Assembly: GCA_944384155.1 (NCBI GenBank)
Contig: CALWSG010000054.1
Span: 1 to 64,000, forward strand
Reading direction: 5' to 3'
Length of the DNA: 64,000 nucleotides
From: an uncultured Lachnospiraceae bacterium
GTDB taxonomy: Bacteria; Bacillota; Clostridia; Lachnospirales; Lachnospiraceae
In this document: positions 41,472 to 46,097 of the stretch, piece by piece
How the letters are laid out: every line of letters starts with the position of its first letter
How positions within the stretch are numbered: position 1 is the stretch's first letter
Program-made: the position numbers and the translations under genes
The notes under the pieces: model-generated
What the model saw: only the letters and a program-made list of their open reading frames with translations
The model's database searches: none
Told to the model about the DNA's origin: nothing

Positions 41472-42650
41472 TTATATTTTAATTGCATTATAAAAGGACT
41501 GACCCACAGACAAAGTATTTTTATTTAAGCCAAGTATCTCCCCTACTGTCTGTCCAATATCCCCAAAGGTTTTTCTTGTTCCAAGATTTATTCCTTTCTT
41601 AATATTTCTGCCGTATACAAGCAATGGTATATATTCTCTTGTGTGATCCGTTCCCGGAACCGTAGGATCACAGCCATGGTCCGCATTTATTATAAGCACA
41701 TCATCAGACCTCATATTGTCTATTATCTCCCCGATTCTTCTGTCTGCATCATTTAGTCCTCTTCCATACCCTTCATAATCATTCCTGTGCCCCCACTTAG
41801 AATCAAACTCCACAAGATTTGTAAATATAAGCCCACTGTCTACTGTTTTCATATAATCAAGGGTTTTATCCATACCGTCCATATTGTCTTTAGTGTGAAC
41901 AGCTTTTGTTATTCCCTTTCCCGCAAATATATCTTCTATTTTCCCCACGGCAGCAACAGTAAATCCTCTTTCCTTAAGGCAGCTTAAAAGATTATTGTCC
42001 GGCGGCTCCAATGAAAAATCACGTCTGTTTGATGTTCGCTCTCTGCCTTTTTCCGTCTTTATATAAGGACGTGCTATAACTCGCCCAACTCCATGCTTTC
42101 CCTTAAGGATTCCTCTTGCTTTTATGCACATATCATACAGCTTATCAGGTGGATAAACAGCCTCATTGCAGGCTATCTGAAACACACTGTCTGCCGATGT
42201 ATATATAATAGGTTTCCCTGTTCTTTCATGTTCCTCTCCAAGCTCCTCTATTATCTTGGTTCCTGACGCCGTGCAGTTTCCCAATATTCCCGGAATATTA
42301 CACTGCCTGATAAATTCCTCCGTTATCTCACCGGGAAAGCCTTGAGGATATGTGGGAAAAGGCTTTTCTACGTATATTCCCACCATTTCCCAATGTCCTG
42401 TGGTAGTATCCTTGCCCTTTGAAATTTCTCTGCATCTTCCGTAGCATCCCACCGGATTATTTTTCTTTGGAACTCCTATCATTCCATCTATATTGCCAAG
42501 TCCTAAGCTTATCATATTTGGAATATTAAGCCCTTTATTTTTCTGCCACACATGACCTATAGTATGACATCCCTTGTCACCGTATTCTTCACAATCGGGC
42601 AGGTCTCCTGCCCCAACACTGTCTAAAACTATCCATATTACACGGCTCAT
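41472..42650 (-). CDS. deoB: Phosphopentomutase
   Basis: 392-aa alkaline-phosphatase-fold enzyme converting (deoxy)ribose-1-phosphate to the 5-phosphate. MSRVIWIVLDSVGAGDLPD (metal Asp), KGKDTTTGHWEMVG (phospho-threonine site), GHRNDYEGYGRGL and NADHGCDPTVPGTDHTRE. ATG 42650 follows AGAAAGGAGTAGT; the 13 codons upstream are untranslated leader. The leader includes a GCGTC...GACGC hairpin resembling the AAACGCTC elements. Confidence 0.95.
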   Translation of the reverse strand: MSRVIWIVLDSVGAGDLPDCEEYGDKGCHTIGHVWQKNKGLNIPNMISLGLGNIDGMIGVPKKNNPVGCYGRCREISKGKDTTTGHWEMVGIYVEKPFPTYPQGFPGEITEEFIRQCNIPGILGNCTASGTKIIEELGEEHERTGKPIIYTSADSVFQIACNEAVYPPDKLYDMCIKARGILKGKHGVGRVIARPYIKTEKGRERTSNRRDFSLEPPDNNLLSCLKERGFTVAAVGKIEDIFAGKGITKAVHTKDNMDGMDKTLDYMKTVDSGLIFTNLVEFDSKWGHRNDYEGYGRGLNDADRRIGEIIDNMRSDDVLIINADHGCDPTVPGTDHTREYIPLLVYGRNIKKGINLGTRKTFGDIGQTVGEILGLNKNTLSVGQSFYNAIKI

Positions 42651-42683
42651 ACTACTCCTTTCTGAAGCGTCCGCACTAAAGAG
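42651..42683 (-). promoter_or_regulatory. Hairpin leader of deoB, diverged relative of the AAACGCTC element
   Basis: GCGTC - 11 nt - GACGC stem, then TTCAGAAAGGAG and the ATG. The CGCTTC segment can alternatively cover GGAG with one wobble pair, so the layout resembles copies 1-4 but the sequence has drifted. Confidence 0.35.
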
Positions 42684-42795
42684 ACGCATCTTAAACGTTA
42701 AATTTGATGTTAATATTCTATCAGATTACAACGCTTTTTTGTATGACTTTAATAAACATTTTGCAAATTTATATAAAATTTATCTTTTTTAGCCA

Positions 42796-42883: not shown

Positions 42884-43918
42884 ATGAGTTTTGAATTTAT
42901 AAGAAAATTGCCTGCACCATCAGAAATAAAGGAACAATATCCGGTTCCTGAAAAACTTGCAGCAATGAAAGCTCAAAGAGATGGTATGATAGCCGATGTT
43001 TTTACAGGCAAATCAGATAAATTTCTTGTTATAGTCGGACCTTGCTCTGCCGACAATGAGCCTGCACTTCTTGATTATGTAGAAAGGCTTGCCAAGGTTC
43101 AGGAAAAAATAAAGGACAGAGTTATTATTATACCAAGAGTATATACAAATAAACCACGCACTACAGGAGAGGGCTATAAGGGTATGCTTCACCAGCCTGA
43201 CCCTGAAAAGAAGCCTGATATGCTAAACGGACTTCTTGCCATAAGACATATGCATATTAAAGCTATGGATGTATCAGGACTTACAGCGGCAGACGAAATG
43301 CTTTATCCTGACAACTACCGTTATTTATCTGATGTTCTTTCATATGTTGCAGTAGGTGCCCGCTCCGTTGAAGACCAGCAGCACCGGCTGACTGCCAGCG
43401 GTATGGACGTTCCATGCGGCATGAAAAACCCTACAAGCGGTAATTTATCAGTTATGATGAACTCTGTTGTTGCGGCTCAAATAGGACATACATTTCTTTA
43501 CAGAGGCTTTGAGGTTAAAACTACCGGAAATCCTTTGGCACACACAATACTTCGAGGCTCCCAGAATAAGCACGGTCAGTGTATTCCAAACTATCATTAT
43601 GAAGATATTATGCTGCTTGACCAATTATACAAAGAAAAAAAACTTACAAATCCGGCAGTTATAATTGATGCAAACCACTCTAACTCTAATAAGCAATTCA
43701 AGGAGCAGATTCGTATATGCAAGGATGTGCTTCACAGCCGAAATTACTCTGCAATTGCAAAAAATCTTGTAAAGGGACTTATGATTGAAAGCTACATCGA
43801 GGAAGGCTCTCAGCCTATCGGATGTGACAATCATATTTACGGAAAATCAATAACCGACCCTTGCCTTGGCTGGAATGACACTGAAAGGCTTCTCTACGAT
43901 ATAGCGGAATTAGTTTAA
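42884..43918 (+). CDS. aroF: 3-deoxy-7-phosphoheptulonate synthase (DAHP synthase, AroG/F type)
   Basis: 344-aa class I-alpha DAHP synthase, the first step of the shikimate pathway (phosphoenolpyruvate plus erythrose-4-phosphate). LVIVGPCSADN, RVYTNKPRTTGEGYKGM, GARSVEDQQHR, GCDNHIYGKSITDPCLGW signatures and normal length. AGGAGGAAAA precedes the ATG. It is one of only two protein genes on the plus strand here and carries its own promoter and terminator; aroK and aroD lie 11 kb away. Confidence 0.97.
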   Translation: MSFEFIRKLPAPSEIKEQYPVPEKLAAMKAQRDGMIADVFTGKSDKFLVIVGPCSADNEPALLDYVERLAKVQEKIKDRVIIIPRVYTNKPRTTGEGYKGMLHQPDPEKKPDMLNGLLAIRHMHIKAMDVSGLTAADEMLYPDNYRYLSDVLSYVAVGARSVEDQQHRLTASGMDVPCGMKNPTSGNLSVMMNSVVAAQIGHTFLYRGFEVKTTGNPLAHTILRGSQNKHGQCIPNYHYEDIMLLDQLYKEKKLTNPAVIIDANHSNSNKQFKEQIRICKDVLHSRNYSAIAKNLVKGLMIESYIEEGSQPIGCDNHIYGKSITDPCLGWNDTERLLYDIAELV

Positions 43919-43927
43919 GAGAAAAAT

Positions 43928-43972
43928 AAAAGCTCTATGGGAATGGTTATCACCACTCACATAGAGTTTTTT
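43928..43972 (+). terminator. Terminator of aroF (overlaps 3' end of convergent recombinase gene)
   Basis: CTCTATG (43933-43939) pairs with CATAGAG (43960-43966), with an inner TGGT/ACCA, followed by six T residues. The stop codon (43957-43959) and last codons of the convergent xerD-like gene are inside it. Confidence 0.85.
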
Positions 43973-44739
43973 AATTTTTCCTTATTCTTTAAAGCTTTAT
44001 TATAGTGACTCCTAAAAGTATAAGATGTAATATTTTCCTCTATTCCTGCTTTCTGTGCATAATCCTTTATTATTTTCCAAAAGCCCTGCCTGCTTAATTT
44101 ATTTCCGTGACAGTTCACAAACAGATAATCGCACTGTCCTGCCCCTATCAGTATACTTCTTCCGTTTTCTATATATTTTCTTAAGGCATTGCCTGTCTTT
44201 TTCCCAAAAAATATGGCTCTTTCATTCTTACCGTTTTTACATTCAACATATTCCATTTCCATTTTTATATCACTTAACCTTATATCAGTAATTTCACTTA
44301 CCTTCATGCCTGTACTATACAAAAGCAGCAGCATTGCCCTATCTCTTAATACCATAGGAAAATCTCCTTTAGGCTGTCTTAAAAGCTTTTCTATTGTTGC
44401 CTCCGATGCTTCTTTTGTCTGCTTTTTTTCCACCCTTGGAGGCTCTATAAGCTCTGTAGGCTCCATCTCAATGTATCTTTTAGCTATCATAAAACGGAAA
44501 AATGTCTTCATTGATGATATATTTCTCACTATGGTTGACGGTGACTTTCCTGTCTTTTCCATATATAAAATATAAGCATTGATATTAGTATATGTAACCC
44601 TGTCAAAGCTGTTAATCCCGCTTTCAACCAAAAAATCTGCCATATGATTTAAATCTCTTCTGTAGGAATCGGCTGTATTTCTTGAGCTTTTTTTAATTCT
44701 TACTATATATTCGATATATTCGTTTATTTTATCCTTCAT
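43957..44739 (-). CDS. XerD-like tyrosine recombinase, truncated and lacking catalytic residues
   Basis: 260-aa tyrosine recombinase. The N-terminal SAM-like DNA-binding domain (about 1-95) is intact, but the catalytic domain is damaged. By alignment from memory with XerD, Arg148 is replaced by Lys146 (YSTGMKVSEI), His244 by Tyr240 (ITSYTFR), only Arg247 (Arg243) remains, and the chain ends before the GH box and tyrosine nucleophile. The beta-hairpin lysine (GKNERAI) is kept. The order nudix-spoIIM-xerD-deoB matches that around xerD in Bacillus, so this is the xerD position rather than a mobile element. A promoter is present, so it may be expressed as a non-catalytic protein. Confidence 0.8.
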   Translation of the reverse strand: MKDKINEYIEYIVRIKKSSRNTADSYRRDLNHMADFLVESGINSFDRVTYTNINAYILYMEKTGKSPSTIVRNISSMKTFFRFMIAKRYIEMEPTELIEPPRVEKKQTKEASEATIEKLLRQPKGDFPMVLRDRAMLLLLYSTGMKVSEITDIRLSDIKMEMEYVECKNGKNERAIFFGKKTGNALRKYIENGRSILIGAGQCDYLFVNCHGNKLSRQGFWKIIKDYAQKAGIEENITSYTFRSHYNKALKNKEKLKNSM

Positions 44740-44784: not shown

Positions 44785-44813
44785 ATTATATAAAAAACTT
44801 AAGTTTTCTGCAA
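44785..44813 (-). promoter_or_regulatory. Promoter of the XerD-like gene
   Basis: TTGCAG (44808-44813), 17 bp, TATAAT (44785-44790). The -35 lies next to the spoIIM stop codon, giving the recombinase a vegetative promoter separate from spoIIM. Confidence 0.65.
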
Positions 44814-44817
44814 CTGT

Positions 44818-45480
44818 TTATATAAATTTTTTTATAATAGCTGAATTTACATATACCTCCAAAAAAGCAGTAATTACTATAAGCAGTATAACGCACAATA
44901 AAAACAACGGTATTTTTTTTTCTCCAACCAGTTCCCTTATAAACAGCTTTATACTGTACAAAAAGCTTTCACCCATGCATCGGCTCTTTCTAAAGAGCTT
45001 CATTTTCTCCCATACATAAAAGCCTGTTGTTATAATAATCACCAGAAGAACGCCGTATGTTATATAATGGGGCATAATACTTAAAAGGTAAATTACAACA
45101 CCTCCAAAGCCATATTTTAAAACAGAAGATGATATAAGCAGGGCTATCACTGCCCCTTTATAGGCACAGTATAGATTCAGAAAAATTCCGCCAACAGAGG
45201 TAAAGGAAATTACCATCACAATCATTACCTCAGCAAACATATTCTTTATAGCATATACAAGAAGGCTTTTACTGTCCACGTCAATATTTTTATATGTTTC
45301 CATAAAATATGAGCTGTAAATGCCAAGCTTGTCATAAAAATAGTCGCAAAAAATATTCATGCAAAAGGTTCCTGCTGCAAGCCCCACAAAGAACCACAGC
45401 AGAAATCTGTAATTTTCATATATATTTTTTACTGATACGCCGTTAATTATATGTACCCTTTTTTTTATCATATCTTCCAT
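44818..45480 (-). CDS. spoIIM: Stage II sporulation protein M
   Basis: 220-aa SpoIIM, part of the SpoIIDMP peptidoglycan-degrading machine of engulfment. Five or six membrane spans with the family's FVGLAAGTFCMNIF start, NLYCAYKGAVIALLISSSVLKYGF and IMPHYITYGVLLVIIITTGF segments. The start may be at 45480 or the ATG three codons later (IKKRVHI); neither has a strong Shine-Dalgarno. A sigma-E-like promoter lies upstream. Shows the host makes endospores. Confidence 0.92.
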   Translation of the reverse strand: MEDMIKKRVHIINGVSVKNIYENYRFLLWFFVGLAAGTFCMNIFCDYFYDKLGIYSSYFMETYKNIDVDSKSLLVYAIKNMFAEVMIVMVISFTSVGGIFLNLYCAYKGAVIALLISSSVLKYGFGGVVIYLLSIMPHYITYGVLLVIIITTGFYVWEKMKLFRKSRCMGESFLYSIKLFIRELVGEKKIPLFLLCVILLIVITAFLEVYVNSAIIKKFI

Positions 45481-45545: not shown

Positions 45546-46097
45546 TTATTTTTTATACTTCACATAGTATGCCATAATAGCTGATACTGTCTTTGAATCC
45601 TGTATGGTACAGTCATATACCATTTTCACCAAATCCTCTATATCATACTCGCACACATCAACATACTCTCCCTCATCAAGATGCTGCTTTGACGGTATAA
45701 GCTCCTTGGCCACATATATGTCTATAAATTCATTACAAAACGCTACAGTTGTCTTTATGCTTATTAGAAGCTCAAGATTATCCGATTTATATCCCGTTTC
45801 CTCCTCAAGCTCCCTTGCGGCACAATCCTTTGTAGGCTCATCAGGGGTATTCCTGCCTCCTGCCGGTATCTCTAAGGTAAATCTGTCAAGGGCATTTCTA
45901 TACTGCCTTACCATAAGAATCTTTCCATTATCCGTAACCGGAATCACTGCCGCTGCACCGCCATGCTTTATAAAATCATAATACTGAATATGTCCATCCT
46001 TATCCTGTATTGTATCCTTATAAAGCTCAATAATTGCTCCCTTATGTACAAGCTCTCTGTTTAGCCTTTCTATAGGCTTTTCATTTATACTGCTCAT
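45546..46097 (-). CDS. NUDIX hydrolase (ADP-ribose pyrophosphatase type)
   Basis: 183-aa nudix enzyme of the NudF/ADP-ribose family. Nudix box GGRNTPDEPTKDCAARELEEETGY is complete, preceded by FTLEIPAG. Likely hydrolyses ADP-ribose or related nucleotide-sugars. The start codon shares its A with the proC stop (TAATG), giving coupled translation. Confidence 0.92.
   Translation of the reverse strand: MSSINEKPIERLNRELVHKGAIIELYKDTIQDKDGHIQYYDFIKHGGAAAVIPVTDNGKILMVRQYRNALDRFTLEIPAGGRNTPDEPTKDCAARELEEETGYKSDNLELLISIKTTVAFCNEFIDIYVAKELIPSKQHLDEGEYVDVCEYDIEDLVKMVYDCTIQDSKTVSAIMAYYVKYKK

Follow-up and report, generated by a model that had tools for sequence, protein, structure and literature searches.

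A truncated XerD-family protein and a candidate XerS-type system for chromosome dimer resolution in Lachnospirales

XerD is generally regarded as a conserved enzyme that catalyses the resolution of chromosome dimers. At the place where xerD is expected, the window studied here, which is the whole analysed stretch of 64,000 nucleotides from an uncultured Lachnospiraceae bacterium, carries a gene for a XerD-family protein that has lost its catalytic end, and this raises the question of how the host resolves its chromosome dimers and what such a protein is kept for. The first-pass annotation of the locus had left two readings, that another Xer protein does the work or that this protein acts as a non-catalytic partner. 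The account to which we lean, from the sequences at hand, is that a single XerS-like recombinase with a dif site at the terminus would resolve dimers, and that the dead XerD would be retained as a non-catalytic DNA-binding protein.

The XerD-family gene of the window and its locus

The features of the locus, in window coordinates, are as follows.

43957..44739, minus strand: truncated, catalytically dead XerD-family protein, 260 aa (open reading frame, family match and alignment)
44302..44304, minus strand: Lys146 codon in place of catalytic Arg I (alignment with intact relatives)
44020..44022, minus strand: Tyr240 codon in place of His II (alignment with intact relatives)
44011..44013, minus strand: Arg243 codon, which is Arg II, retained (alignment with intact relatives)
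44074..44094, minus strand: SRQGFWK motif, residues 216-222, presumed DNA-recognition helix (R217, Q218, W221 and K222 kept in 10/10 truncated XerDs)
44818..45480, minus strand: SpoIIM-family neighbour, upstream of xerD (PF01944)
45546..46097, minus strand: NUDIX-family neighbour (PF00293)
42884..43918, plus strand: DAHP synthase (aroF), convergent neighbour, between xerD and deoB (PF00793)
41472..42689, minus strand: deoB (phosphopentomutase), named from sequence alone
43931..43972, no strand assigned: terminator hairpin common to xerD and the convergent aroF, its right arm encoding KLKNSM (read from sequence)
44785..44813, minus strand: promoter-like TTGCAG-17-TATAAT upstream of xerD, with a weak -35 (sequence)

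Against the XerD model TIGR02225 the window protein scores 216 bits (5.8e-64) over profile positions 2-246 of 290, which is below the curated equivalog cut-off of 329.6 bits; its N-terminal SAM-like domain is intact and its catalytic domain is missing its end. Our alignment with intact relatives bears out the earlier claim that Arg I is Lys146, that His II is Tyr240 and that the second His and the tyrosine are absent: the window protein reads TGM-K146-VSE where the relatives read TG-R-VSE, and S-Y240-TF-R243 where they read P-H-TL-R. The beta2-3 lysine region (NGKNER) is retained, and the stop comes 17 residues past Arg243, with the second His/Trp and the tyrosine nucleophile missing, which leaves the catalytic set R-K-H-R-H/W-Y incomplete. 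Judged by these residues, the protein is unable to cut DNA. The accompanying claim that no frameshift near the end restores the motif also holds, as the motif is encoded in none of the frames downstream of xerD and the stop of the convergent aroF is only 38 bp from the xerD stop. In an AlphaFold model of the protein, made with a three-sequence alignment (mean pLDDT 85.7), both domains are confident, the relative placement of the domains and the last helix are not, and the catalytic domain is at 1.7 Å rmsd to E. coli XerD over 140 columns.

The gene had been placed in a conserved order nudix-spoIIM-xerD-deoB and credited with a good promoter. The nudix and spoIIM neighbours are as described, but aroF separates xerD from deoB, and the orthologous locus reads nudix-spoIIM-xerD-aroF; aroF-xerD-spoIIM is found in G001, a sister species (uncultured Roseburia MAG) of the window host, G000, and L093 carries nudix, intact xerD and aroF at the same locus. 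As to the promoter, the -10 TATAAT is perfect, but the -35 is weak and promoter-like sites upstream of xerD are no more numerous than in shuffled sequence. At the other end of the gene, the last six residues of the protein (KLKNSM) are translated from the aroF terminator hairpin; we infer a deletion, which probably fused the shortened xerD to this terminator.

XerS-like recombinase and inverted-repeat site at the terminus

The search for other Xer proteins and a dif site that the first-pass annotation had proposed yielded a XerS-like gene and a candidate inverted-repeat site, and XerC above its cut-off in 0/61 genomes of the order, the host included. The host encodes seven PF00589 proteins. 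In the XerS-like protein at G000:C1:44498-45556 the residues R, K, H, R, H and Y are all present, and the XerS model (NF003462) is its best match, but at 220.4 bits it stays below the cut-off of 267. The XerS-like gene occurs in nearly all of the 61 genomes, XerD-less ones included, and other XerC/D-like proteins are sporadic among them. The host itself has a complete XerC/D-like recombinase (309 aa; L249 260-3454, G000:C50) between NusG-like and LytR-CpsA-Psr genes, a setting that resembles polysaccharide loci, and this is possibly a phase-variation recombinase.

The cumulative GC skew of G000 peaks near C1:46856, close to the XerS-like gene, and the position of the gene coincides with the skew switch there, in G001 and G002 and in many other genera; the contig of G003 stops a little beyond the gene, with the skew falling at that point, and in some genomes no switch falls inside the stretch read around it. 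The XerS-like protein of the XerD-less congeners (G002:C110 and G003:C87; L251 and L252), at or near the skew switch, is divergent, being about 40% identical. A separate observation is that the terminus of G006 has a close pair of XerS-like genes (G006:C2 103249-108095, in L222).

Comparison of the intergenic DNA around the XerS-like gene in about 46 genomes revealed de novo a 34-bp inverted repeat, AACTATTCGCRAAA-N6-TTTAACGAATAGTT. With a leave-one-out matrix the site was found in 25 genomes at scores of 16.4 to 52.6, the maximum of 208 controls being 15.9. About half of the genomes scanned near xerS, G002:C110 and G003:C87 included, have no match above controls, and in these the site differs or lies elsewhere. 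The site is often less than 500 bp from the skew maximum (G025, G057, G006, G055, G042, G030, G027), and it occurs in genomes with and without XerD. The host copy is 1.5 kb from the XerS-like gene, and no second copy is present in the window or in C50:

C1:43001-43034: host copy of the 34-bp site, ATTTATTCGCAAAA-CGCAAG-TTTTGCGAATAAAT, with perfect 14-bp arms (score 30.7)

We regard the 34-bp repeat as the putative dif of the XerS-like enzyme, which would act there. An unmasked k-mer search of the xerS flanks had brought up nothing but the conserved coding region of the gene upstream and was set aside. In about ten genera (L277 6551, L279 2725, L261 (G025:C60:14992) and others) the intergenic DNA near xerS holds a further conserved motif, CGAACATATTTTCGGAATATATGTTTGC, possibly a LexA-type site or a different class of dif.

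The complete XerS-like recombinase and the conserved inverted-repeat site at the terminus strongly support the earlier suggestion that another Xer protein resolves dimers. Chromosome dimers in Lachnospirales would then be resolved by one XerS-like tyrosine recombinase at an inverted-repeat dif of the terminus. The distribution of the genes suggests that XerS replaced XerCD in dimer resolution, that XerC was lost and that XerD, having no XerC partner and being unneeded for dimer resolution, may have been freed to lose catalysis.

Truncated XerDs across the order: distribution, constraint and possible role

The XerD of G001, at the same locus, has 242 aa, is 48% identical to that of the host and ends at the second catalytic Arg, close to where the host protein breaks off, with Arg I kept and His II replaced by Asp; palindromic repeats come after the truncated gene, and its 3' junction differs from that of the host. 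Several of these repeats are REP-like (GTGCCGC...GCGGCAC, AATTCGCATTCGCGAATT) and lie between the truncated xerD and aroF at L009 1116-1500. A XerD match is absent in the other two of the genus's four species (G002, G003), where spoIIM is present, and in three of the four species of another genus. The first-pass annotation had reasoned that an intact gene in close relatives would make this one a recent pseudogene; in this genus the relatives proved to have a truncated gene or no XerD match. About 139 of 250 genomes of the family have a XerD ortholog (counted at above about 230 bits). Eight further orthologs end near position 243-258 of a 292-position profile, and one more truncated XerD is present in another family of the order (L037). 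On the question, raised earlier, of whether the same residues are lost at xerD across Lachnospiraceae, truncated dead forms were found in nine of the family's genera and in another family of the order, about ten genera in all. Full-length XerDs with lost catalytic residues are present in G055, G020, G027, G154 and G142, and the interval from spoIIM to aroF is cleanly devoid of xerD in G011, G025 and G032. Because XerD is missing in the congeners and cleanly absent in these three genomes, its function is dispensable. A tree places the dead XerDs in several spots (8 changes, bootstrap 7-8), and only 2 of these changes are forced by strongly supported branches, the long branches making the tree rough. 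A single origin of dead XerDs, which was considered, finds no support in this rough tree.

The main rival to retention is slow decay. If XerS resolves dimers, an orphan XerD would be useless, and the lineages would stand at various stages of catalytic decay, truncation and deletion. This is possible for the window's own gene; as the general explanation we consider it rather doubtful. It draws on the patchiness of XerD, its clean absence at the same locus and its loss in sister species, on long branches and fast evolution with inactivation more than once, and on the host tail read from the aroF terminator. It is difficult to reconcile with G184 and G279, two species of a related genus, which share the same truncation and the same catalytic losses, with a hairpin directly after the gene in both. 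Their truncated XerDs have 71% amino acid identity over 240 codons with no internal stop, and are better conserved than the neighbouring spoIIM (55%); pN/pS is 0.27 [0.20-0.35], with synonymous sites near-saturated. This codon comparison shows that the shared truncated XerD of the G184 genus is under purifying selection. It is in that genus that selection on the truncated form is shown; between G000 and G001 the pN/pS of xerD is 0.49 [0.40-0.60], similar to 0.45 for spoIIM, and these two truncations could be recent. Against decay speak also the frames that stay open and stop-free up to about residue 243, that of the window gene among them, where about 5 stops would be expected after neutral drift by 0.2 changes per site, and the truncation points, which in many lineages are clustered directly behind the second catalytic box. 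The recognition motif does not vary either: R217, Q218, W221 and K222 are kept, together with R72, in 10/10 truncated XerDs, and from their place in the Xer fold these residues would contact DNA. The catalytic residues drift among the same ten proteins, His II being kept in 2/10 and Arg I in 6/10. The persistence of truncated forms under selection in at least one genus therefore points to a non-catalytic role, and from the earlier suggestion of a non-catalytic partner the idea of a retained non-catalytic protein gains backing from the shared truncation in the related genus.

Could that partner be the XerS-like enzyme, with the truncated XerD regulating or assisting it at or near its dif? We find this improbable. 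In its favour, a palindrome of two XerD-type half-sites, AGTTNNCATAA-N5-TTATGNNAACT, is present in 18/30 genomes with XerD and in 5/31 without (p = 0.0006), with no such difference for the reversed control (7/30 and 9/31), but the test was devised after the data were seen and the evidence is moderate. The palindrome is often near xerS, in several genomes within tens of kb of the terminus, and the host copy (C1:43950, two mismatches) is 0.95 kb from the candidate dif. However, that copy lies inside coding sequence, the palindrome is separate from dif, the XerD-less genome G036 has good copies of it, and the candidate dif and XerS are also found in XerD-less genomes. The palindrome may be a XerD-binding site. 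Some copies extend to longer perfect hairpins with arms of about 17-18 bp (L114 (G073), L229 (G036:C14:80815)). In G112, whose XerD is dead, single XerD half-sites are not concentrated at the terminus, and nothing close to a canonical dif was found in the termini of G112, G129 and G073. Two earlier candidates were dropped. A cluster of the half-site TTATGTAAAC in G073 turned out to lie around the origin (dnaA at position 25), with hit flanks that share nothing, and the AGTTTACATAA palindrome was given up as host dif when its reversed control gave many chance matches and the de novo comparison turned up a motif with better conservation; we now treat this palindrome as no more than a candidate XerD-type site.

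That an assembly or sequencing error truncated an intact gene is hardly credible, for although one assembly of the host species was seen, the catalytic residues are already substituted before the end is reached, the 38 bp that follow run straight into aroF and a second species (G001) is truncated too.

Retention of the dead XerD alongside a XerS-like resolvase is thus the reading that we carry forward. In many genera, the host included, XerD has lost catalytic residues together with the tyrosine-bearing C-terminal helices, and the truncated protein keeps its arm-binding N-terminal domain and the presumed recognition helix. Its likeliest role may be sequence-specific, non-catalytic DNA binding, perhaps the unloading of SMC as in Bacillus, where SMC expulsion by XerD of B. 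subtilis reportedly needs neither the catalytic residue nor XerC. SMC as the target is a tentative suggestion made by analogy. It is conceivable, if speculative, that the truncated dead XerDs of Lachnospirales form a separate functional class of proteins dedicated to binding the terminus, such as SMC unloaders, left behind when XerS/dif took over recombination.

Comparison with known Xer systems

XerS is described in the literature for streptococci, lactococci and Lactobacillus helveticus, and a partial literature search turned up neither a XerS/dif system for Lachnospirales nor dead XerDs. An order of bacteria seems to have passed dimer resolution to an enzyme of XerS type that has a terminus site of its own, and a candidate dif is named for a major group of gut bacteria. 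A XerD that is catalytically dead yet persists would offer a testable natural separation of recombination from a proposed non-catalytic role.

The window protein shares with XerD of the XerCD/dif system (E. coli XerD, B. subtilis RipX) the locus, the two-domain fold, the best-matching family and the recognition-helix motif. It differs in the absence of Arg I, His II, the second His/Trp and the tyrosine, the last about 45 residues being gone, and in that no XerC exceeds the cut-off in the host or in the 61 genomes of the order. The XerS-like protein resembles XerS/difSL of streptococci and lactococci (PMC5357621) in its size, in having XerS as its best model, in being a single recombinase and in the position of its gene near the site and at the skew switch, but it falls below the model cut-off (220 versus 267 bits) and is found in Clostridia. 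While a length of 31 bp and an 11-bp centre are given for difSL (PMC5357621), the Lachnospirales site is 14+6+14 bp. In B. subtilis, XerD is described as expelling SMC at the terminus independently of recombination (Karaboja 2021, as cited in PMC8523169 and PMC10945525). The likeness to that SMC unloader would be by analogy, in a XerD with a proposed terminus role free of recombination, but the B. subtilis protein is catalytically intact, unlike the window protein. Finally, in L. helveticus XerC, XerD and XerS occur together, which has been described as a possible evolutionary intermediate (PMC3025954). The coexistence of XerD with XerS at the terminus is common to both cases, whereas Lachnospirales have lost XerC, and many of their genera have a dead XerD or none.
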